From: an uncultured Glaciecola sp.
GTDB taxonomy: Bacteria > Pseudomonadota > Gammaproteobacteria > Enterobacterales > Alteromonadaceae
NCBI GenBank assembly: GCA_947496235.1
Contig: CANMCE010000002.1
Location: forward strand, 248,001 to 312,000
DNA length: 64,000 nt
Direction: 5' to 3'
Part shown: positions 18,061-31,886 of the stretch, piece after piece
How positions within the stretch are numbered: the first letter of the stretch is position 1
Layout of the letters: the number at the start of each line of letters is the position of its first letter
Position numbers and translations under genes: made by a program
The notes under the pieces: generated by a model
Seen by the model: only the letters and a program-made list of their open reading frames with translations
What the model was told of the DNA's origin: nothing
Database searches by the model: none

Positions 18061-18654
18061 TTGGACATTACTAGCATTATTGCCATAGTGGTTATCGTTA
18101 TTATCGCGTTCTATCTAATCAGTATCTTCAACAAATTAGTAGCGCTCAAAAACCGCTACAAAAATGCCTTTGCGCAAATTGAAGTGCAATTAAAGCGTCG
18201 TTACGACCTGATCCCTAATTTGGTCGAAACCGCCAAAGCCTACATGCAGCATGAAAAAGAAACCCTCGAAAATGTGATAGCAGCGCGTAATCAAGCATCT
18301 GCTGGTTTGTCTAAAGCCGCAGACAATATGAGTGGTGCGGCTATGCAAGATCTTGCAGGTGCAGAAGCTATGCTTTCCGGTGCTTTAGGAAGATTAAACG
18401 TAGTCATGGAAGCTTATCCTGACCTTAAAGCTAACCAAAATATGATGCAAGTAAGCGAAGAATTGAGTTCGACAGAAAATAAAGTGAGCTTTTCTCGCCA
18501 AGCGTATAATGATCAAGTCTTAGCCTACAATACTTATAAGCAAAGTTTCCCCCAGAATATGCTGGCGAATATGTTTGGCCATTCTGAAGATGCGGCTCTA
18601 CTTGAGTTCCAAGACAGTGACAAAATTCAGGAAGCACCAAAAGTAAGCTTCTAA
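18061..18654 (+). CDS. lemA: LemA family protein
   Basis: 197 residues starting at TTG 18061, which is well supported by AAGGAG at 18049-18054. One N-terminal helix (about 4-24) is followed by the long helical LemA body: KNRYKNAFAQIEVQLKRRYD, then DLIPNLVE, with SFSRQAYND toward the end. LemA proteins are membrane-attached four-helix bundles of unclear biochemical role. They are very often encoded next to M48 or Htpx-type peptidases, as here, where the peptidase gene begins 3 bases after the lemA stop. This suggests a joint role in membrane protein quality control. Confidence 0.93.
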   Translation: MDITSIIAIVVIVIIAFYLISIFNKLVALKNRYKNAFAQIEVQLKRRYDLIPNLVETAKAYMQHEKETLENVIAARNQASAGLSKAADNMSGAAMQDLAGAEAMLSGALGRLNVVMEAYPDLKANQNMMQVSEELSSTENKVSFSRQAYNDQVLAYNTYKQSFPQNMLANMFGHSEDAALLEFQDSDKIQEAPKVSF

Positions 18655-18657
18655 TTT

Positions 18658-20550
18658 ATGAATTTTTTTGAATCACAAGATAACGCCCGAACCAGCACAA
18701 AATGGTTGCTGTTTTATTTCACTATGGCGGTTGTAACGCTAATTATAGTGACCAATATTTCCATCATGGGCGTGTTCATCTATTTTGATTTACAAGGCCA
18801 ACCCTTATCTTTTGATCTCATAATGGCAAACTTCAATTGGGAAATGTTTGCTTGGATTTCACTGGGTATCTTAGCTGTGATATCAGGCGGTAGCCTGTAT
18901 AAAATGTCTTCACTTTCAGCCGGTGGGCGTGTTGTGGCGCAGTCATTGGGCGGTGAAAAAATTGATCACAACACCCAAAATCATCAACAAAAAGTGCTGT
19001 TAAACGTGGTAGAAGAAATGGCGATAGCATCAGGAACGCCTGTGCCGCCAGTCTATTTACTCAAAAATGAAAATGCAATAAACGCCTTCGCCGCTGGTTA
19101 TTCCACTGATGATGCTGTTATCGGTGTGACCCAAGGCGCATTAGATAATTTAGACAGAGCCGAACTTCAAGGGGTTATTGCCCATGAATTTAGCCATATT
19201 TTAAACGGTGATATGCGTTTAAATATGCGCTTAGTCAGCGTCTTGCACGGTATTCTAATTATCGCGCTGATCGGCTATAGAATAATGCAAACGACTAGCC
19301 ACTCCAGTCGCTCCAAAAACAACGGCAACATTGCACTTATGGGCTTGGGCTTTGTTGTTATAGGTTATACAGGCGTGTTTTTCGGGAATATTATAAAGGC
19401 TTCTGTTAGTCGACAAAGAGAATATTTAGCAGATGCGTCAGCAGTGCAATTTACCCGAGACAATCAAGGTATCGCCAACGCCCTAAAGAAGATTGGTGGA
19501 ATCAAATCTCACGGCAATCTAGAAACCTCAGAAGCCCGCTCGTTTAGTCATGCTTTTTTTGCCGACGCGATTAAATCAAAATTTGGTGGCTTGTTTTCAA
19601 CCCATCCTCCTCTAAACGATAGAATTAAAAAGTTAGATCCACTATTTAGAGGCAAATTCAAAGAGTATACCCCGACATCTTCCGGACAAAATGAGCAAAC
19701 TTCGGGCTTTGCTCCTCAACCTAGTGAAATTAATACGTCTGATATTGGAAACTTGGCTACTCAACATATTCAAACGGCTACAAACTTAATCGCTAGTATC
19801 CCAAGTGTAATTAAACCAAGATTGTATAATACCGAATCAGCAGAGTCGGCTATTTATGCATTGTTAGTAGGCAAGACCTCTAAAGATAAAGCTCTAGATA
19901 ATCAAATTGGATATTTAAAGACACAACTGCCTGAGATTCAATTTGAGGAATTCCAAACCATGCTCCCTGAATTCCAAGATCTAGCGGAAAGTTTGCGTTT
20001 ACCTGTGCTAGAAATAGCATTGCCTAATTTAAGAAGTATGTCGAAAATCAATTTTTATCGATTTGAGGAAAATCTAAAATATCTGATAAATGCTGATAAC
20101 CAGCTAGACTTATTTGAATGGACAGTCTTTTCTATCACAACTCAATATTTAAAAACTGAGTTTGAAACGGCTAGAGTACCAATTCATAGACACAAAGATT
20201 TTGCCAAGGTAGCAACAGAGTTAAATTGTTTTTTACAGCTCATATTGGATCAGTGTGTCAAGCCAGAACACCATGAAACAGTAAAACAACAAGTAAAGGA
20301 ATTGTTTTCAGTAGAGGTTTCAGGTCAAAGTAAAGATCCGTCAGGCCCTGTGTTAATAGAAGACTTTGCAGGCGCTGTCATACAACTACGCAGCTTATAT
20401 CCAAAAAGAAAAGAACAACTATTGAAAATAGCTTTCTTCATGATGACTCAAGATGACGAATACTGCCATACAGAGCAGGAGTTAATGCGTGCAATCGCCG
20501 AAACCTTAGGTTGCCCAATGCCTGTTTTTCAGACATTGAGCAAAGCTTAG
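18658..20550 (+). CDS. M48-family membrane zinc metallopeptidase with C-terminal extension
   Basis: A 630-residue membrane peptidase. Two N-terminal helices (about 15-42 and 62-82) precede the HEFSH zinc motif (H176, E177, H180), and two more helices around 195-250 lead to the third-ligand segment EYLADASAV. This HtpX-like part fills only half of the protein. The last 270 residues are a helical extension whose end (LYPKRKEQLLKIAFFMMTQDDE...) resembles TerB-like tellurite-resistance domains. The extension may regulate or recruit substrates. The gene sits directly behind lemA. Peptidase assignment firm; TerB-like end is tentative. Confidence 0.92.
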   Translation: MNFFESQDNARTSTKWLLFYFTMAVVTLIIVTNISIMGVFIYFDLQGQPLSFDLIMANFNWEMFAWISLGILAVISGGSLYKMSSLSAGGRVVAQSLGGEKIDHNTQNHQQKVLLNVVEEMAIASGTPVPPVYLLKNENAINAFAAGYSTDDAVIGVTQGALDNLDRAELQGVIAHEFSHILNGDMRLNMRLVSVLHGILIIALIGYRIMQTTSHSSRSKNNGNIALMGLGFVVIGYTGVFFGNIIKASVSRQREYLADASAVQFTRDNQGIANALKKIGGIKSHGNLETSEARSFSHAFFADAIKSKFGGLFSTHPPLNDRIKKLDPLFRGKFKEYTPTSSGQNEQTSGFAPQPSEINTSDIGNLATQHIQTATNLIASIPSVIKPRLYNTESAESAIYALLVGKTSKDKALDNQIGYLKTQLPEIQFEEFQTMLPEFQDLAESLRLPVLEIALPNLRSMSKINFYRFEENLKYLINADNQLDLFEWTVFSITTQYLKTEFETARVPIHRHKDFAKVATELNCFLQLILDQCVKPEHHETVKQQVKELFSVEVSGQSKDPSGPVLIEDFAGAVIQLRSLYPKRKEQLLKIAFFMMTQDDEYCHTEQELMRAIAETLGCPMPVFQTLSKA

Positions 20551-23081: not shown

Positions 23082-25409
23082 ATGCATAATTTTCTAATCA
23101 CACTGATCAACAAACGAACAAGCATTCTGATTTTTAGTTGTTTACTTATTATTGTCTTAACCTCCATTGGCGCCAAGAACCTCTATTTTAGAGGTGATTA
23201 TCGGGTATTTTTTGAGCCGGATAACCCCCAACGAGTAGCTTACGAGCAGATGCAAAAAGCGTTTAGTAAAAATGAAAGTGCATCTATTGTTATTAGCGCG
23301 AAAAATGGAGATTTATTTAATCAACAAAGCCTAGCCCTAATTAAAAAACTCACCGAGCAAAGCTGGCAAACACCATTATCTTTAAGGGTCGATTCAATTA
23401 CCAATTACCAGCGGACCTATTTATATGATGAAGATCTAGTCATAGAAGATTTGGTACCTAGCACCGATAACCTCTCAACCGAAGATATACAAACCATTCG
23501 ACAGGTGAGTTTGTCTGAGCCAGAACTTATCAACAAACTGATTTCTGAAGATGGTTCAGTGGCCATGATTAATATTACGGTTCAATTACCAAACGGTGAT
23601 CAAACCAAAGAAATTAATCAAATTGGCGCGTTTTTACGGGATCTTATTCAACCTGTTATTGAGGAAAATGAAGCCCACGAAATTCGTCTTAGCGGTTTGG
23701 TAATCATGACAGATTCGTTCTTTTTAGCTGCACAAAAAGATGCCATGACCCTTTTCCCATTGATGTTTGCTATCTTTGCCTTGCTACTGACCCTTTTTAT
23801 GAAGACTTTTAAAGGGACGTTATTTACGCTCTTGATTGTGATGGTAAGCATAGCCTCAACAATGGGACTTGGCGGTTGGTTAGGCATGTTTATTAACGTT
23901 GCTACTGTGAATGTTCCTGTGATCATCATGACTCTAGCCATTGCCGATTGCGTGCACATAATTTCAAGTACTCGAAAGTTTATGGAAGATGGCTATAGTC
24001 AGCAGGAGGCTATCGGTAAATCGTTAGAAATCAACTTGAGTGCCGTTCTAATCACAAGTACTACAACAGCATTAGGCTTTTTAACCTTAAATTTCGCCGA
24101 AGTACCAGTGCTTCATGATATGGGCAATTTAGTCGCAATTGGCGTGATATTCGCCTGCGGGTTTTCAATCTTTTTACTTCCAGCGCTACTTAAGAAAGTT
24201 CAACTTCCTTTCACTGTGATTAGCCAAGAACAAAAGGCAGGGGAACCTTCTGAAAATATCTGGCACAAATATACAGTGTTCTTAACTCGATATTGCAAGC
24301 CAATATTGGTGTCTGTTACGGCTTTATTTGTTTGTTTTGGTTATTTGGCGAGTCAAAATCAGTTGAACGATATTCCTATAGATTATTTCAATAAAGGCAA
24401 TGAATTTAGAGAAGTTGCAGACTATCAACAGGAAAATTTAACAGGACTTACTACGGTAGACTTAGCCATAGATACCGGCGAAGAAAACGGCATATTCGAT
24501 CCAAAGTTTTTAGCATTTTTAGACGAATTTACATCTTGGTTAAGAGAGCAACCTGAGGTGGATCATGTTCTATCATACGCAGATATATTAAAACGTTTGA
24601 ACAAGGTGTTAAATCAAGATAACCCAGATTTTTATAGCATGCCCGAAAAGCGTACTTTAGCAGCACAATACACCTTACTTTATGAGATGTCCTTACCCTA
24701 CGGTCTTGACGTTAATAATCAGCTTGATATCAGTAAATCGAGAATTCGATTAATAGTTACCACAAAAAACTTAGGCAGTATTGCGCTTACGGATTTTGAA
24801 AGTAGAGCTAAGTTATGGGTAGCTGACAATGGAGCTGGATATACAATTAGTGGGGCAAGCATCCCCTTAATATTTGCCCATATAAGTGAATCGAACATGG
24901 ACGGTATATTAGAAGGAACTATAGTCGCTTTGTTGCTGATTTCAGTTGTTCTGTTTTTTGCGCTAAGGAATGTTAAACTGGGTGTTATCAGCTTGATACC
25001 TAATATTTTCCCTGCGGTTTTTGGTTTTGGAATATGGTATTTATTCTCTGGCACCATAAGCATGGCGCTCGCTGTGGTTATGATCATTCCGCTTGGCATT
25101 ATAGTGGATGATACTGTTCATTTTCTGGTTAAATATCAGTCAAACTTTAAACAAAGCAAAAACAGCTTAGAAGCAGTGAATTACGCGTTTAAGCACGTAA
25201 GTAAAGCCTTAATTATCACCACCATAGTACTCGCCAGCGGATTCAGTGTTCTTGGGTTGTCAGATTTCGCAATTAACTCTGAAATGGGCATATTAACAGC
25301 TACTATAATAGTACTTGCTCTAGCAATCGACCTTATTGTGTTACCGTCACTGTTGCTGTTGTTTTATCGCAATGGCTATGAACTGTCAGAAAATACATCT
25401 AAAGCATAA
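23082..25409 (+). CDS. RND-superfamily (MMPL type) exporter
   Basis: A 775-residue transporter with the duplicated RND plan. One helix is at about 12-32. A periplasmic domain extends to about 215, then five helices follow (about 220-375). The second half repeats this: helix near 405, periplasmic domain to about 610 and five helices to about 765. Compact size, no membrane-fusion partner gene and the segment IADCVHIISS are typical of MMPL/HpnN-like exporters that move lipids or hydrophobic molecules. It lies upstream of the PEP-CTERM-linked genes, but 700 bases separate it from them, so a shared role is only possible. Substrate unknown. Confidence 0.9.
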   Translation: MHNFLITLINKRTSILIFSCLLIIVLTSIGAKNLYFRGDYRVFFEPDNPQRVAYEQMQKAFSKNESASIVISAKNGDLFNQQSLALIKKLTEQSWQTPLSLRVDSITNYQRTYLYDEDLVIEDLVPSTDNLSTEDIQTIRQVSLSEPELINKLISEDGSVAMINITVQLPNGDQTKEINQIGAFLRDLIQPVIEENEAHEIRLSGLVIMTDSFFLAAQKDAMTLFPLMFAIFALLLTLFMKTFKGTLFTLLIVMVSIASTMGLGGWLGMFINVATVNVPVIIMTLAIADCVHIISSTRKFMEDGYSQQEAIGKSLEINLSAVLITSTTTALGFLTLNFAEVPVLHDMGNLVAIGVIFACGFSIFLLPALLKKVQLPFTVISQEQKAGEPSENIWHKYTVFLTRYCKPILVSVTALFVCFGYLASQNQLNDIPIDYFNKGNEFREVADYQQENLTGLTTVDLAIDTGEENGIFDPKFLAFLDEFTSWLREQPEVDHVLSYADILKRLNKVLNQDNPDFYSMPEKRTLAAQYTLLYEMSLPYGLDVNNQLDISKSRIRLIVTTKNLGSIALTDFESRAKLWVADNGAGYTISGASIPLIFAHISESNMDGILEGTIVALLLISVVLFFALRNVKLGVISLIPNIFPAVFGFGIWYLFSGTISMALAVVMIIPLGIIVDDTVHFLVKYQSNFKQSKNSLEAVNYAFKHVSKALIITTIVLASGFSVLGLSDFAINSEMGILTATIIVLALAIDLIVLPSLLLLFYRNGYELSENTSKA

Positions 25410-26124
25410 CTGATTATAATACTCACTGCTTAAATATTGTTCTAATCGTCAAATAATTTGCAAATTGCAGCGATTTTGATATTAATCAAAATAAAGAATT
25501 ACTTTTTTTTTCAAAAGTTCAAAAAAGTGATTTTATAAATAAGACGTTTGCAAAAATAATAATAATGATTAGATAAGGTAATGATACTTCAAGAAATTTA
25601 GGAAAAATCTTTGCTCTTTAATGAGGTTAATCCAAGCTCTGTAACCCAATTAAAATTTGAATTCTTCCTAAAGTGTCTCTTTTTCATCACATTTTCATAA
25701 TCGCAAAAAAAAGCGTCAAAAAATAGACTTTGGTTTAATTTTAACTCGCAATATTTATAAACATTAACAATAAAAGCGAAACTACTTAACAAATTAAACG
25801 ATGAGTTTACATGCGTATTAAATTCAACTGTCTCCTTTTTGAGACACTTTTCATAATGAAGAGAAGGTGATACGTTTTTTTTCTTAAGACGACTATTGAT
25901 TTGTAAGCGTTTTTTTATCGTAAATAAGCGACTGCTTTTGGCATGCATCTTGATTGTGCGTGCGTCGCATAGTTCGTCGGAGACGGGCTATTAGAGTCTA
26001 TATGGATATTTTACTTTTAATTTATACAAAGGGTGGTGGGTGAAAGATCAGACTTTATTACGTTTTTCTCTAAAGTTTGATTGAGCCAGTACGATTACTA
26101 TACTATTGTAAGGTAAATAACCAA
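25410..26124. other. 715-base AT-rich intergenic region
   Basis: There is no convincing gene. A minus-strand open frame at 25598-25948 has no ribosome site and an implausible composition rich in Lys, Ser, Asn and Phe. Visible structure: AAAGTGTCTC at 25670-25679 and its reverse complement at 25841-25850, a small hairpin GTCTC/GAGAC at 25830-25845, and a less AT-rich segment from 25940 to 26000. That last segment contains a -24/-12-like sequence (25939-25954) that could drive the acyltransferase gene. The region is long for this genome, so it may hold a leader RNA or a lost gene. Confidence 0.5.
25939..25954 (+). promoter_or_regulatory. possible sigma54 (-24/-12) promoter for the N-acyl amino acid synthase gene
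   Basis: TGGCATGCATCTTGAT: the -24 half matches TGGCACG in six of seven positions. The GG is followed by exactly 10 bases, but the -12 half reads TTGA instead of TTGC. It would give a leader of about 160 bases to the gene starting at 26125. It is weaker than the site at 30854 and is listed because both precede PEP-CTERM-linked genes. Confidence 0.3.
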
Positions 26125-26979
26125 ATGCGTTCAGAACAAATTCATGACTTTTGGAGCACAATTCCACATGCTTTATTTGTGGCCATAAAACATTTCAAAT
26201 CGGATAACCTAAGTAAAGTGAAAAAAGTTGTTGATGCCTATAACAAGGCGAAAGAAGCGAAGCAGTTAGCTCAGCATTTTTGCGAGTATTTTCATTCTGA
26301 AATCGCCGAATCTCAAGAAGATCTCGATAAGTGTTATCGAATCAGACATGAGGTTTATTGTGAAGAGATGAATTATCTTCCTTTGTGTGAAGATAAGCTA
26401 GAAAAAACTTCGGTCGATGAACATTCTCAGCATTATATTATTCAACATAAATACAGTCGTCATTTCGCTGGTACTGTTAGGTTGGTCTATACAGACAATG
26501 ATGAGCAGCAATTGCCAATAGAACAATTCTGCAAAGACAGCATTACCAACGAAAAATTACATCCAAACGCTTTTCCGCGAAATCAGATTTGTGAAATTTC
26601 CCGATTGGCGGTGCCAGCGAGCTTTCGCCGAAGACGTATGGATAAATTCAAAAATGCTGCAACTGGTGGCATCAACGAATATGAATATTCTGAGGAAGAA
26701 TTAAGATGTTTTCCTTTCGTCGCGATAGGCCTGTATTTGGCAGCTGGTGCTGCAGCACTGAGAACGGGAAGATATCATGTATTTGTAATGATGGAGCCAA
26801 GGCTTGCTAGAAACATGAAGTTTGTCGGTATCAAATTTAATCAGATTGGCGATACCGTAAATTACCATGGTAAAAGAGCGCCTTATTACATTGATGCAAG
26901 AATATTTAAGAAACAACTTAAAACTGCATTTAAGAATATGTTGGCGATGATTGAAGGCCAATTGTACGAAGAAAAATAA
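26125..26979 (+). CDS. PEP-CTERM/exosortase-associated acyltransferase (N-acyl amino acid synthase type)
   Basis: 284 residues from ATG 26125 (the frame is open to a TTG at 26077, less likely). The sequence fits the GNAT-type family TIGR03694, related to LuxI autoinducer synthases. CYRIRHEVYCEEMNYLP near residue 75 is the LuxI-like acyl-transfer segment, followed by AGTVRLVY, then ICEISRLAVPASFRRR and FVMMEPRLARNMKFVGIKF. Members of this family linked to PEP-CTERM loci (the FeeM group) make long-chain N-acyl amino acids from acyl-ACP. A cytoplasmic enzyme is expected. It stands 25 bases upstream of a ThiF-like gene, probably in one operon. Amino acid substrate unknown. Confidence 0.88.
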   Translation: MRSEQIHDFWSTIPHALFVAIKHFKSDNLSKVKKVVDAYNKAKEAKQLAQHFCEYFHSEIAESQEDLDKCYRIRHEVYCEEMNYLPLCEDKLEKTSVDEHSQHYIIQHKYSRHFAGTVRLVYTDNDEQQLPIEQFCKDSITNEKLHPNAFPRNQICEISRLAVPASFRRRRMDKFKNAATGGINEYEYSEEELRCFPFVAIGLYLAAGAAALRTGRYHVFVMMEPRLARNMKFVGIKFNQIGDTVNYHGKRAPYYIDARIFKKQLKTAFKNMLAMIEGQLYEEK

Positions 26980-27004
26980 ACCATGAATAAATCAGTTGTG
27001 AATA

Positions 27005-27865
27005 ATGACTAATTTTAATTATGAAAATGCTTTTTCACGTAATATAGGTTGGCTAACGCCACAGGAACAAAACCTTTTAAGAAGCAAAAAGGTAGCAGTG
27101 GCCGGCTGTGGCGGCGTTGGTGCTGAATATATCGTTTCTCTCGCCAGACTTGGCATTCAGCAATTCAATATTTCAGATTTTGACGATTATGAAGTTCACA
27201 ATTTCAATCGTCAGGCTGGGGCATTCATGTCCACTGTTGGTCGTCAAAAAGCCGATGTGATGGAACAAGTTGCTTTAGATATAAATCCCGAAAGCACTAT
27301 CCAGTCGTTCAAGGATGGCGTAAATCCAGAAAACGTAGATAGCTTTCTTGATGGCGTTGATTGCTATGTCGATGGCTTAGATTTCTTCGCCTTAGAAGCT
27401 CGAATATTGGTGTATCAAAAATGCCAAGAAAAGGGAATTCCGGTGTTTATTGCTGCACCTATTGGTATGGGCGTTGCCATGTTAAATTTCTTGCCTGGCT
27501 CTATGTCTTACGACCAGTATTTTAACTTTTCAGCAGTGGAGACATTAGAAGAAAAGCTTGTGCTCTTCATGGTTGGATTATCCCCCTCCTTAATACAGAT
27601 GAAATATCTGGTTTATCCCGAAGGAGCTAACTTCAAAGCACAGAAGACACCTTCGACAATAGCAGGTGTTAAATTATGTGGAGGAGTTGTCGCCAGTAAT
27701 GTGTTAAAATTTTTGACAAACAGAGGCGAAATTATCAAAGCTCCCTACGCTATGCACTTTGATGCTTATTTGAACAAGTTAGTTAAAACTAAATGTGCAT
27801 TTGGTAATAAAGGGCCTTTGCAACAATTGAAGTATCGCATCGCAAAATCTAAGTTAGTGCGCTAG
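27005..27865 (+). CDS. ThiF/E1-like adenylyltransferase of the PEP-CTERM locus
   Basis: A 286-residue E1-superfamily protein. The nucleotide loop is VAVAGCGGVGAEYIVSLAR (about 30-48). DFDDYEVHNFNRQAGA supplies the acidic strand end and the conserved N-x-x-R finger, and VGRQKADVM the conserved Lys. These residues suggest real adenylation activity. It lacks the usual paired CxxC zinc site of ThiF and MoeB and has no obvious rhodanese domain. No ubiquitin-like partner (a small protein ending in GG) is adjacent; the nearest is MoaD, 10 kb away. Next to an N-acyl amino acid synthase it may activate a carboxylate on that product or on a carrier. Role unknown. Confidence 0.87.
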   Translation: MTNFNYENAFSRNIGWLTPQEQNLLRSKKVAVAGCGGVGAEYIVSLARLGIQQFNISDFDDYEVHNFNRQAGAFMSTVGRQKADVMEQVALDINPESTIQSFKDGVNPENVDSFLDGVDCYVDGLDFFALEARILVYQKCQEKGIPVFIAAPIGMGVAMLNFLPGSMSYDQYFNFSAVETLEEKLVLFMVGLSPSLIQMKYLVYPEGANFKAQKTPSTIAGVKLCGGVVASNVLKFLTNRGEIIKAPYAMHFDAYLNKLVKTKCAFGNKGPLQQLKYRIAKSKLVR

Positions 27866-28007: not shown

Positions 28008-30737
28008 ATGAAATGGAACATACGTTGGATATTAATAATCGCAAGCTTAACATTAATATCTTGTGGTCAGCAGACGCCCGAAGAACTAATGAGCAGTGCA
28101 AAAGCCAACATTGAAGCTGGAGATAAAAAAACTGCAGTTGTCGAGCTGAAAGCCCTAATAGCCCAAGACACAAATAATGCGGAAGCAAGACTTCTATTAG
28201 GCAATATTTATTTAGAGTTGGGTGACTACGCAGCCTCTGAAAAAGAGCTTAGAAGAGCTGATGATCTTGGTGTTCCAAAGCGGATAGTTCTACCAAACAT
28301 TGCCAGAGCCCTTTATTATCAAGAAGATTTTGACGGTGTTATAGCTTTGTCAGGCGAAGTCGATAAAGTTTCAGATGTGGCTGCTAGTGAATCAGTCCAA
28401 CTTTTCATCTTTTTATCTAAAATTAAACTCAAAGAAAATCTGAATCAACTCATAACACCTGTTTTTGAGGATAAAAACAAAGAGTCTTTAGCTAACGCTT
28501 ACCTTCTTTTTACAAAAAATGATATTCAAGAGGCAAATACTGCTATTGCTGAATTTCCACAAGACCATGGAAATTATGCAGAATACTTATTTATCCACGC
28601 TATTATCAACGAGTTTAATCGTGATTATGATAAGGCAATTCCTAGCTACAATGCGTTATTGAATCTGCACCCAAATTATCATTTGGTCAGGTTTTTATTA
28701 ATAGATGTTCTTATCCGCACTAATCAATTAGAACAAGCTACTACAAACATTGATTATTTAATGGCATTAAATTCGGAGCAACCGATTGTCAATTTCTACA
28801 AAGCGTCAGTCGACTTTATTAACAAGGACTATGAAAATAGCTTTTTGCATTCTCAAAAAGCAAAGAACGAAGGTTTACTTGAATTACGAAACGACATCAT
28901 TCTTGGTTTAAGCGCTTTAAAACTAGGAAAACTAGAACAAGCATATGCATCAATTGAAAGAAGTGCTAAACAACTTCCAAAAACACTTGGCATACAACGA
29001 GTGTTGGCCAAATTGCAATTAGAATTAGGGCTTATTGCGGAAGCAGGTGAAACGATCGCAACATTGAAAGGGCAATCAGAGCTCGATGATGAGTTATATA
29101 ACGATGCCGCGAATGTTTTTGCTAAATTACAAGACTTTTCATTAGCCCAACAACAATTACAGATTATAAATAACACCGATGCTAAAACGCCGGATTCCAT
29201 ATTAAAAGAGGGATTGAGCAAAATAGCGGCCGGTGATTATAGCGGCGTAGATGATATTAGATTATCTATTGAGCTTGCTCCTGAAGTGATTCAAAAGTGG
29301 CTATTGCTGGCTGAGATTTATGTTAATCAAGGTAAAACAGATTCGGCATTGGCGTTAGCTCGAGCATTAGCGAATGATGAACCAGCATTAGGACTTGTTC
29401 TTGAAGGGCAAATATATGGCAAGTCGGGTAATCTAGATAAAGCACTAGCATTATTTGAAAAAGCTTATGCGTTGTCACCAGAGAAAACCCCGGTGGTCAA
29501 TAATTACGTTCGATCGCTGGTTGAATCTGAAAACTATAAACTTGCAATGGACATAGCTAAAACAGCACTGAAAGACGAGCCTAGTAATCAGATTCTGAGC
29601 GGAGAATATTTAAAAATAACAGGTGCAACTGGACTTTCCGAAGAAGACGGCCTCTTTATAGAATCCTTGGTCAAAGATAATCCTGAGCTTATACAGCCTA
29701 AGATGTTATTAGCTGCCTTCCTTCGAAAACAAGGGAAAATAGATGAAGCATTTAAGATTTTAGATGCAAAAGATAGTCGACTATCTGATATTGGACTGAT
29801 GTCACTAGGAGATATTTTTTACAATCAAGATAAATTTAAAGATGCAGAGGAAATCTACAAAAGATGGTTGCAACTTTACCCTGAGCAAGTAATGCCTTAC
29901 TTAAGACTTATTGGCACATATAGTAATCAAAAAGAATTTACTAAAGTGCGACAAACACTGAACCAAGCTTTGGCTAAGTTTCCAAATAGCGAAGCTTTGC
30001 AGCTTGCTCAAGTGCAAGACTATATTCGGAACAGGGATTATGCAGAAGCGGATAAGAAACTTAATATGCTTTCATCTTCTGGATCTAAAAACACCTTACT
30101 TCCAAAATATGTTGGAATAGTTGCTCTCAACAAAGGCGAGTATGCTAAGGCAGTTGAGAATCTTAGTTCCTATTATGAATATTCAAATGCGCTAGAGGAT
30201 GCTATCAATCTATCATCTGCGCTGGCATATAATGGACAAATAGAAAAAGGCGCGAGTCTTCTTATTGAGCAAGCAAACAGTAATCCGAATCCTTTAGCGA
30301 AATACGCAGCTGGTGAATATACTATGGTGCATAGTTTAAATAGCAAAGCTAAAGATATTTATGAAAATATATTGGCAAGCCAACCAAGCAGCTTAGTTGC
30401 TATTAATAACCTAGCCATGGTGAACATAGAACTAGGAAATAATGAAACTGCTTTGGAATATGCTCAACAGGCGAATAATTTAGCGCCCGAACATCCGTTA
30501 ATTTTAGATACTTATGGTTGGGCTCTTTATAAGAATGGACTGTTATTAGAAGCGGAAACCACTTTAGAAATTGCATATAACAATTCGTCCAAAGACCCTT
30601 CCGTTGGTCTTCATTATGCGCAGGTCTTAATTGAAAGAAACAAAAAACAAGAAGCGCGGCAAATTCTCAATAGTTTGAATCCAAGAACGAGCTCACAAGA
30701 TACGTTGAAGAAAAAGCTTATGGAAAACTTCAATTAA
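28008..30737 (+). CDS. prsT: PEP-CTERM system TPR-repeat lipoprotein PrsT
   Basis: A 909-residue lipoprotein. The lipobox LISC gives C19. The rest is a chain of tetratricopeptide-like helix pairs from about residue 25 to the end; SAKANIEAGDKKTAVVELK is the first, and LAMVNIELGNNETALEYAQQ (near 805) is one of the clearest. Length and N-terminal sequence fit the family TIGR02917 (PrsT), which occurs almost only in genomes with exosortase and PEP-CTERM proteins. It is probably anchored in a periplasm-facing membrane leaflet and serves as a scaffold for export or surface assembly. Upstream lie the acyltransferase and ThiF genes; downstream is a PEP-CTERM substrate. Confidence 0.9.
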   Translation: MKWNIRWILIIASLTLISCGQQTPEELMSSAKANIEAGDKKTAVVELKALIAQDTNNAEARLLLGNIYLELGDYAASEKELRRADDLGVPKRIVLPNIARALYYQEDFDGVIALSGEVDKVSDVAASESVQLFIFLSKIKLKENLNQLITPVFEDKNKESLANAYLLFTKNDIQEANTAIAEFPQDHGNYAEYLFIHAIINEFNRDYDKAIPSYNALLNLHPNYHLVRFLLIDVLIRTNQLEQATTNIDYLMALNSEQPIVNFYKASVDFINKDYENSFLHSQKAKNEGLLELRNDIILGLSALKLGKLEQAYASIERSAKQLPKTLGIQRVLAKLQLELGLIAEAGETIATLKGQSELDDELYNDAANVFAKLQDFSLAQQQLQIINNTDAKTPDSILKEGLSKIAAGDYSGVDDIRLSIELAPEVIQKWLLLAEIYVNQGKTDSALALARALANDEPALGLVLEGQIYGKSGNLDKALALFEKAYALSPEKTPVVNNYVRSLVESENYKLAMDIAKTALKDEPSNQILSGEYLKITGATGLSEEDGLFIESLVKDNPELIQPKMLLAAFLRKQGKIDEAFKILDAKDSRLSDIGLMSLGDIFYNQDKFKDAEEIYKRWLQLYPEQVMPYLRLIGTYSNQKEFTKVRQTLNQALAKFPNSEALQLAQVQDYIRNRDYAEADKKLNMLSSSGSKNTLLPKYVGIVALNKGEYAKAVENLSSYYEYSNALEDAINLSSALAYNGQIEKGASLLIEQANSNPNPLAKYAAGEYTMVHSLNSKAKDIYENILASQPSSLVAINNLAMVNIELGNNETALEYAQQANNLAPEHPLILDTYGWALYKNGLLLEAETTLEIAYNNSSKDPSVGLHYAQVLIERNKKQEARQILNSLNPRTSSQDTLKKKLMENFN

Positions 30738-30853: not shown

Positions 30854-30869
30854 TGGCATCCTATGTGCA
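30854..30869 (+). promoter_or_regulatory. sigma54 (-24/-12) promoter of the PEP-CTERM protein gene
   Basis: TGGCATCCTATGTGCA: GG at 30855-30856 and GC at 30867-30868 are separated by exactly 10 bases, and TGGCA and the TGCA end follow the sigma54 consensus. A start about 12 bases further on would give a leader near 37 bases before ATG 30917. Sigma54 control through PrsK/PrsR is known for PEP-CTERM genes in other genomes; those regulators are not in this window. Confidence 0.7.
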
Positions 30870-30916: not shown

Positions 30917-31837
30917 ATGAACAAATTATTTAAAACATGTATTGCAACTGCAATCATCGCAAGCTCAAGTGTAGCTATGGCAAGCAACGTATACATAAAC
31001 CTTGCTAACAACAGCTATGATACTAACAGATTTATTGGTTCTGCAGACGCTGACACAGCAACTGGCCAATTTACTGAATTAGGTTTCAGCCAGTTATGGG
31101 CTACTTCAATTTATGATTTAAACCCAGATATGTCATTGGCTGGCACTGTAACAGATACTAACATTACTGCCGACTTAGCTGCTGCTGGTATCCCTGGCGG
31201 TCCTTACAATTCAATCGACGGATCAACTAGTTCTTCTTTGGTTTCTCCAGATTGTGCTTTAGGTCAATGCGACATTGATGCTCTTAGCCCACTTGTACCG
31301 CCTTTAGGAACAGATAACGAAGGTTTCTTACAAACTTGGGATATCCAAGTAGAGTATTCATTGACTGCAAACTTAACGCCTGCAGGTCCTCAGTATTACA
31401 CTGGTTACATTGAGTTTTTCTTCAACGATTTACTTAATGATGCGAACGACCGTTCAATCATGCTTGCTGAAGTAACAGGTTCTAGCATTGAAGCTGCAAA
31501 TCTTAACATCTTTTTTGACATCGTTTCAGCTGAGCTAGGCTTCTTCTTCGTTGAAGACGATTACGGCAACTTCCAAGACGCTGGGCAATTAGCTCTTGAT
31601 GCTGTAACAAGCGATGATTATGCGAAGTTGAACCTAGATACTAACGTTGACCCAGACGGTGATACTCCAGTAATCCCTACTGCTAGCGATTTATTTGTTA
31701 CTTCTTCAGGTCAAGCTGCACGTCAGTCTGGTTTGGACGGAAGTATCGCTGCTAGTCTAGTTCCAGAGCCTAGCATGTTAGCGCTTCTTGGACTAAGCAT
31801 CATTGGTTTTGGCGTAGCTTCACGTCGTAGAAAATAA
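30917..31837 (+). CDS. PEP-CTERM sorting-domain protein (choice-of-anchor F-like)
   Basis: A 306-residue exported protein. A signal peptide ends near residue 22 (VAMA-SNVY). The mature protein is acidic and rich in Asp, Asn, Ser and Thr, as expected for a surface or matrix protein. The C-terminus is a textbook PEP-CTERM tail: V-P-E-P at about 283, a hydrophobic helix (LALLGLSIIGFGVAS) and an RRRK end. An exosortase cleaves near PEP and the protein goes to the surface or the exopolysaccharide. The N-terminal region resembles the choice-of-anchor F group, which I recall less surely. AAGGA precedes ATG 30917; a sigma54 promoter and a strong terminator frame it as a single-gene unit. Confidence 0.9.
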   Translation: MNKLFKTCIATAIIASSSVAMASNVYINLANNSYDTNRFIGSADADTATGQFTELGFSQLWATSIYDLNPDMSLAGTVTDTNITADLAAAGIPGGPYNSIDGSTSSSLVSPDCALGQCDIDALSPLVPPLGTDNEGFLQTWDIQVEYSLTANLTPAGPQYYTGYIEFFFNDLLNDANDRSIMLAEVTGSSIEAANLNIFFDIVSAELGFFFVEDDYGNFQDAGQLALDAVTSDDYAKLNLDTNVDPDGDTPVIPTASDLFVTSSGQAARQSGLDGSIAASLVPEPSMLALLGLSIIGFGVASRRRK

Positions 31838-31856: not shown

Positions 31857-31886
31857 GAAAAACCGGCCTAATGGCCGGTTTTTTCT
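31857..31886 (+). terminator. Rho-independent terminator of the PEP-CTERM protein gene
   Basis: AACCGGCC (31861-31868), loop TAAT, then GGCCGGTT (31873-31880) and a T-rich run. The stem is a perfect 8 bp with strong GC content, 23 bases after the stop codon. Confidence 0.92.

Follow-up and report, generated by a model that had tools for sequence, protein, structure and literature searches.

The window analyzed here, a stretch of 64,000 nucleotides (G000:C2:248001-312000) from a 4.4 Mb gammaproteobacterial genome, contains two adjacent genes that encode a putative N-acyl amino acid synthase (NAS) and a ThiF-like adenylating enzyme (hereafter ThiF), and that sit among components of a PEP-CTERM system:

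23082..25409, + strand: MMPL/HAE3-type exporter (PF03176, TIGR00921), possibly a lipid exporter; its membership in the module is uncertain
26125..26979, + strand: NAS, acyltransferase of the TIGR03694 type, 284 aa (TIGR03694, 232 bits; PF21926, 40.8 bits)
27005..27865, + strand: ThiF/E1-like adenylating enzyme of the PRK08223 family, a predicted N-acyl amino acid cyclase, 286 aa (NF006077, 386 bits)
28008..30737, + strand: PrsT, the TPR-repeat protein of the XrtA/PEP-CTERM system (TIGR02917, 450 bits, cut-off 312)
30854..30869, + strand: sigma-54 (-24/-12) promoter-like box, TGGCATCCTATGTGCA, matching at 9/10 scored positions, 47 bases 5' of the PEP-CTERM gene
30917..31837, + strand: PEP-CTERM protein of the body family that we call PEPX (PF07589/TIGR02595 tail; body profile)
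31857..31884, + strand: likely intrinsic terminator closing the cluster (12-pair stem with T tail, by consensus match only)

The open reading frames of NAS and ThiF are both intact and separated by 25 bases, as the initial annotation had it; an alternative in-frame TTG start at 26077 would extend NAS by 16 aa. The MMPL exporter gene ends 715 bases upstream of NAS, and ThiF is followed by PrsT after 142 bases. PrsT and the PEP-CTERM protein adjoin the pair and the exosortase of the genome is encoded on another contig (C3; PF09721, 235 bits), which together make up the gene set of an XrtA/PEP-CTERM system. Both the sigma-54 motif and PrsK/R/T have been described by Haft et al. 2006 (PMC1569441). 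In related loci, the -24/-12 box precedes 78% of the PEP-CTERM genes, versus 1% in mononucleotide-shuffled sequence. No such box precedes either gene of the pair in the window, and among relatives it was found before 0/77 NAS genes and 1% of ThiF genes. Since NAS-ThiF thus lacks the box that the PEP-CTERM gene carries, the two probably form separate transcription units. A candidate sigma-54 box before NAS, at 25939, was rejected: it reads GA for GC, the window-wide count of such candidates is no higher than chance and the relatives do not have it. A structure model of the PEP-CTERM protein (pLDDT 75) found no credible match in the PDB. Elsewhere in the window, at 18061-20550, a LemA family gene comes directly before the gene of a membrane protease that shows an HExxH motif (M48/HtpX-like, by eye), an ordinary pair.

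The first protein of the pair matches TIGR03694, named 'PEP-CTERM/exosortase system-associated acyltransferase', far above the cut-off of 112 bits, and more weakly the FeeM profile PF21926. By these matches it would be the N-acyl amino acid synthase that the acyl-oxazolone pathway calls for; a phmmer search against the PDB returned no match. The second protein (P0002) matches the ThiF profile PF00899 with 134 bits, and its best family is NCBIfam PRK08223 (NF006077, cut-off 266), which carries the title 'hypothetical protein' and no functional name. Three further profiles match it, namely PRK14851 (260 bits), PRK14852 (203 bits) and Rv1355c/TrzS (61 bits). The PRK14851 profile spans 679 positions, the last 350 of which match a separate nitroreductase encoded by G139, the closest relative in our sample of the class. 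Judged by the PRK14851 and Rv1355c scores and by the ThiF tree described below, the protein belongs to the same family as the oxidase-fused ThiF cyclases. Its nearest relatives are from Alteromonadaceae.

The E1-like signature of PF00899 is present in full, with the GxGGxG nucleotide loop, a motif of the N-x-x-R-Q type and the adenylation lysine and aspartate, and the residues R12, G34, G36-G39, D58, D60, N66, N68-R69-Q70, K82 and D126 are invariant across 51 proteins. An AlphaFold2 model built with 51 sequences in the alignment reached a pLDDT of 94.5, and its closest solved folds are AclA of Tenacibaculum (9egb), ThiF and MoeB, at a Z of about 26-27 and about 20-22% identity, matches within 1 Z being counted as tied. 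Sequence-profile searches of the PDB ranked TcdA first (E 1e-23), followed by ThiF and MoeB. Such likeness of a modeled fold to TcdA, ThiF and MoeB does not by itself fix the substrate. In E. coli, the E1-like TcdA/CsdL (tRNA ct6A dehydratase) carries out an ATP-dependent intramolecular cyclization of a carboxylate with no ubiquitin-like partner; TcdA, however, acts on tRNA, and the host genome carries a TcdA-type protein of its own besides ThiF.

The shared superfamily and fold, with ThiF and MoeB structures aligning at a Z of about 26, would suit an enzyme that activates a ubiquitin-like sulfur carrier of the MoaD/ThiS type. Nevertheless, we consider this role extremely improbable and have rejected it. 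The CxxC...CxxC zinc site is absent from ThiF and present in the MoeB/ThiF-type protein that the same genome encodes separately, next to the TcdA-type protein; no gene for a ubiquitin-like carrier was seen among the flanking ORFs that were read; and the ThiF family is tied to NAS and nitroreductase genes, including in the form of nitroreductase fusions. The initial annotation had described a TIGR03694/FeeM acyltransferase next to an E1-like enzyme with intact nucleotide-site residues and no zinc site, and this description stands.

For the same annotation, a pairing of the two families found only here would have counted as a refutation, and the pair is clearly not unique to this genome. Across 369 genomes of the class, NAS co-occurs with ThiF in 30/40 genomes that have ThiF versus 18/329 that do not (p 3e-23), a TIGR03694 match being missing in 10 of the 40. 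We also examined 75 further loci that belong almost entirely to the same family: 54 of them have NAS immediately upstream of ThiF, 62 have PrsT no more than 10 kb away from ThiF, and 60 have a PEP-CTERM ORF no more than 5 kb away. The postulated link of the acyltransferase to PEP-CTERM systems was likewise supported, and members of the ThiF family occur almost exclusively in genomes that encode an exosortase. An exosortase is encoded in 38/40 ThiF genomes versus 82/329 others of the class (odds ratio 57, p 1e-18), and in 73/73 versus 43/75 among 148 genomes of the family (p 7e-12), all these co-occurrence tests counting genomes as independent. Five congeners found in the family search have the exosortase and no ThiF; the module is thus patchy within the genus.

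Published systems offer a close parallel. In M. tuberculosis, TyzA acylates Tyr or Phe, the ThiF homologue TyzB uses ATP for ring closure of the resulting N-acyl amino acid, and the ring is desaturated by TyzC, a nitroreductase-superfamily oxidase that depends on flavin (PMC10404671). TrzAS, like Tyz a system of M. tuberculosis and relatives, is the Trp counterpart, in which a ThiF-oxidase fusion cyclizes N-acyl Trp with ATP, and OxzAB of Pseudoalteromonas rubra is the founding acyl-oxazolone case (PMC12856293). When the oxidase domain of TrzS is mutated or O2 is limited, the cyclized saturated intermediate accumulates (PMC12856293), and cyclization is therefore independent of the oxidase. Like these systems, the window combines an N-acyltransferase with a ThiF-like, predicted ATP-dependent cyclase that matches the Rv1355c-family and PRK14851 profiles, and an MMPL gene lies near its pair just as an mmpL gene lies near tyz. 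Unlike them, the genome has no flavin-dependent oxidase, the acyltransferase is of the TIGR03694 type and the neighbors are PrsT and a PEP-CTERM protein. Hence there is published precedent for the proposal that the E1-like enzyme targets the carboxylate group of an N-acylated amino acid (PMC10404671, PMC12856293). The accompanying idea of an undescribed pathway has to be given up, as acyltransferase, ThiF-like cyclase and oxidase are already known together from the acyl-oxazolones (Oxz, Tyz, Trz).

A second group of known systems comprises the producers of the N-acyl dehydrotyrosines thalassotalic acid, kyonggic acid and stieleriacine, in which genes for NAS, ThiF and a nitroreductase likewise occur together; no oxazolone was detected in these producers, and the role of ThiF was called enigmatic (PMC12479983). 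The Thalassotalea gene set of NAS, ThiF and nitroreductase is that of G139; the window shares the first two and lacks the third. As to the surroundings, a link between NAS and PEP-CTERM/exosortase systems was published in 2011 by Craig, Cherry and Brady, as cited in PMC7293339, where a PEP-CTERM gene is also noted in the S. maiorica cluster. With this TIGR03694-based link the window has both the acyltransferase family and the PEP-CTERM neighborhood in common. The gene table of the Rubrivivax PEP-CTERM EPS locus lists a UBA/ThiF protein without comment (PMC3684757). In the literature searched, which did not include the 2011 paper itself, we found no mention of the ThiF partner, of its oxidase-less variant or of a switch in PEP-CTERM family.

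One unusual point of the window is the missing oxidase. G139, whose ThiF is 66% identical, has an operon NAS-ThiF-nitroreductase, and neither its flavin-dependent oxidase nor a ten-sequence profile built for this protein found a match in the host genome. Four other nitroreductase-like proteins are encoded there; none adjoins the pair and none matches the oxidase profile at E 0.01. The nitroreductase-superfamily oxidase of the acyl-oxazolone pathway is thus lacking both as a separate and as a fused protein. Twelve further genomes with a single-domain ThiF, when searched as a whole, likewise gave no full-length oxidase match, some of them yielding only partial profile hits, 22-31 residues long and scoring about 17-23 bits.

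The two-gene form of NAS and ThiF with no oxidase is both common and recurrent. Among 120 ThiF loci (40 from the class-wide genome sample and 80 named loci), the oxidase is separate in 42, fused in 30 (L072 included) and absent nearby in 41, where absence for the named contigs means no oxidase within 3 kb rather than in the whole genome. In the ThiF tree, fused, separate and oxidase-less rows interleave, so that they make up a single family. The oxidase-less state changes 21 times; supported branches force at least 8 of these changes, and one clade with 100% support unites eight oxidase-less rows that come from several families. In the 75 further loci, 55 have no oxidase near ThiF. It is difficult to reconcile this distribution with a degenerate remnant, in which the oxidase would have been lost, NAS and ThiF would have become functionless and their adjacency to PEP-CTERM genes would merely record the history of the locus. 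The absence of the module from five congeners speaks for such decay in that the module must often have been gained and lost. However, both genes are intact, the catalytic residues of ThiF are unchanged in oxidase-less members too, the oxidase-less clade extends over several families and oxidase-less loci are the majority in the further set; we therefore hold decay to be very unlikely. Two minor observations concern the tree itself. Four divergent, long-branched ThiF rows at its edge (L058, L059, L060 and L061, from genomes G107, G066, G296 and G122) may differ in activity, and the identical ThiF-nitroreductase proteins of L139 and L141, filed as Gallionellaceae and Methylophilaceae, suggest either a binning error or a very recent transfer.

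By analogy with the characterized homologues, we think it rather likely that the pair makes an N-acyl amino acid and cyclizes it to a saturated oxazolone. The substrate, ring closure, export and role that we infer for it would be as follows. NAS, going by its family, would link an amino acid, through its amino group, to a long acyl chain. To judge by its characterized homologues, ThiF would then use ATP to adenylate the carboxylate left free in this N-acyl amino acid; intramolecular attack of the amide oxygen on the adenylate would yield a lipid with a saturated 5(4H)-oxazolone (azlactone) ring. Because the desaturating flavin oxidase is absent, the product would be this reactive saturated oxazolone, or a product of its hydrolysis or transfer, and not a stable conjugated oxazolone. 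Finally, as the gene linkage suggests, the product would be exported and would probably act alongside the PEP-CTERM/PrsT system, at the cell surface or in the matrix of the biofilm. The pair would thus cover the first two steps of Oxz, Tyz and Trz with the defining oxidase missing, and we therefore class it as a variant of that pathway rather than count it among its members.

Several points count against this explanation. Ten of the 40 ThiF genomes in the class sample give no TIGR03694 match that would account for the acyl donor, and the N-acyl dehydrotyrosine producers yielded no oxazolone (PMC12479983). Azlactones racemize and hydrolyze readily, and a saturated azlactone would be an odd end product. 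It is conceivable that the oxazolone is an intermediate only, either because the enzyme racemizes the N-acyl amino acid or converts it in some other way, or because an unrelated oxidase encoded elsewhere desaturates the ring. Besides the lability of azlactones, the lack of detectable oxazolones in the ThiF-carrying N-acyl dehydrotyrosine producers (PMC12479983) and the four other nitroreductase-like proteins of the genome would agree with this. Nonetheless, those four proteins neither match the oxidase profile nor adjoin the pair. We know of no racemase precedent in the ThiF-like family and regard an intermediate-only role as unlikely.

With respect to export of the saturated oxazolone that we favor as the product, many related loci contain an exporter, either MMPL or a LolCDE-like ABC transporter, along with a periplasmic protein resembling LolA (LolA16/LolA19) and a conserved outer-membrane-like protein, OMPf3, of about 520 aa with no NCBIfam match. 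This set lies near ThiF in L040, L045, L059, L065, L066, L116, L123, L140 and others, and its recurrence suggests, as a lead only, that the lipid leaves the cell by way of these proteins. MMPL genes themselves occur in 13/40 ThiF loci of the class sample, 10/80 named loci and 2/75 further loci. In the window, MMPL is present upstream and no LolA-like or OMPf3 protein was seen near the pair; the upstream MMPL gene recurs in only 2/12 congeners.

The partner protein of the PEP-CTERM system varies from locus to locus, and it does so together with the oxidase. A single PEP-CTERM family beside all ThiF genes, which a first profile seemed to indicate (93/120 loci), was dismissed: the matches were driven largely by the sorting tail, and with the tail removed only 20 loci match, the remaining ones being accompanied by other PEP-CTERM families. 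So defined, the PEPX body family is found at 16/41 oxidase-less loci versus 0/72 oxidase-bearing loci of the first set (p 9e-9), a member in L072, 5.5 kb from the fused ThiF, being left out as non-adjacent. Another family, C1, likewise mostly oxidase-less, comprises 20 proteins, of which 16 are at oxidase-less loci, 2 at loci of undetermined state and 2 are exceptions. In a held-out test, the frozen models were applied to the 75 new loci, 68 of which were kept after near-identical ThiF proteins had been removed. PEPX was present at 19/51 oxidase-less versus 0/17 oxidase-bearing loci (p 0.0017), and PEPX or C1, the latter having been picked after the first set was seen, at 23/51 versus 0/17 (p 0.0003). 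Pooling both sets gives 35/92 versus 0/89 for PEPX. Phylogenetically independent pairs on well-supported branches yielded 3 for, 0 against and 6 ties for PEPX, which is not significant, and 6 for, 0 against and 3 ties for PEPX or C1 (median p 0.03). The PEP-CTERM family thus co-varies with the oxidase state in a manner that is consistent and reproduced but weakly controlled for descent.

This co-variation is the main reason, along with the loss of the oxidase, why we retain a model in which the adenylate or the saturated azlactone is an acyl donor to the PEP-CTERM protein, the exosortase product or the exopolysaccharide. Also in favor of a lipid tag of this kind are the loss of the stabilizing desaturase in a stable lineage (the fully supported clade of eight) and the frequent position of a PEP-CTERM gene beside ThiF: in the first 120 loci, 37/103 motif-positive PEP-CTERM genes lie within 500 bases of it, the counts falling with distance. 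On the other hand, the neighboring PEP-CTERM protein family has no conserved acceptor or nucleophile residue apart from its sorting tail, ThiF is predicted to be cytoplasmic whereas PEP-CTERM proteins are exported, the sigma-54 box marks the PEP-CTERM genes and not those of the pair, and the independent pairs, while never contradicting the co-variation, are few. To our knowledge such a transfer has no biochemical precedent. The initial proposal that PEP-CTERM proteins or their matrix are tagged was therefore not borne out, the known reaction being intramolecular and a conserved acceptor residue being absent, and we consider tagging quite unlikely. Similarly speculative, and no more likely than an intermediate-only role in our estimate, is the broader notion that the reactive saturated acyl-oxazolone or acyl-aminoacyl adenylate of the oxidase-less pair modifies or partners a specific PEP-CTERM family, the partner switching with the desaturase. 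If this were true, the chemical component that the exosortase system has so far lacked would be an acyl amino acid lipid, with a bearing on what exosortases attach PEP-CTERM proteins to and on why acyl amino acid synthases occupy such loci.

A defined enzyme pair statistically tied to exosortase genomes, with a companion PEP-CTERM family that differs with the presence of the desaturase, makes a chemical role of acyl amino acids or oxazolones in this surface system testable, and the analysis singles out a common form of ThiF with no oxidase. As a separate observation, four oxidase-less loci (L105, L191, L219 and L223) carry, directly 3' of ThiF, 3-5 tandem PEP-CTERM proteins of one family.
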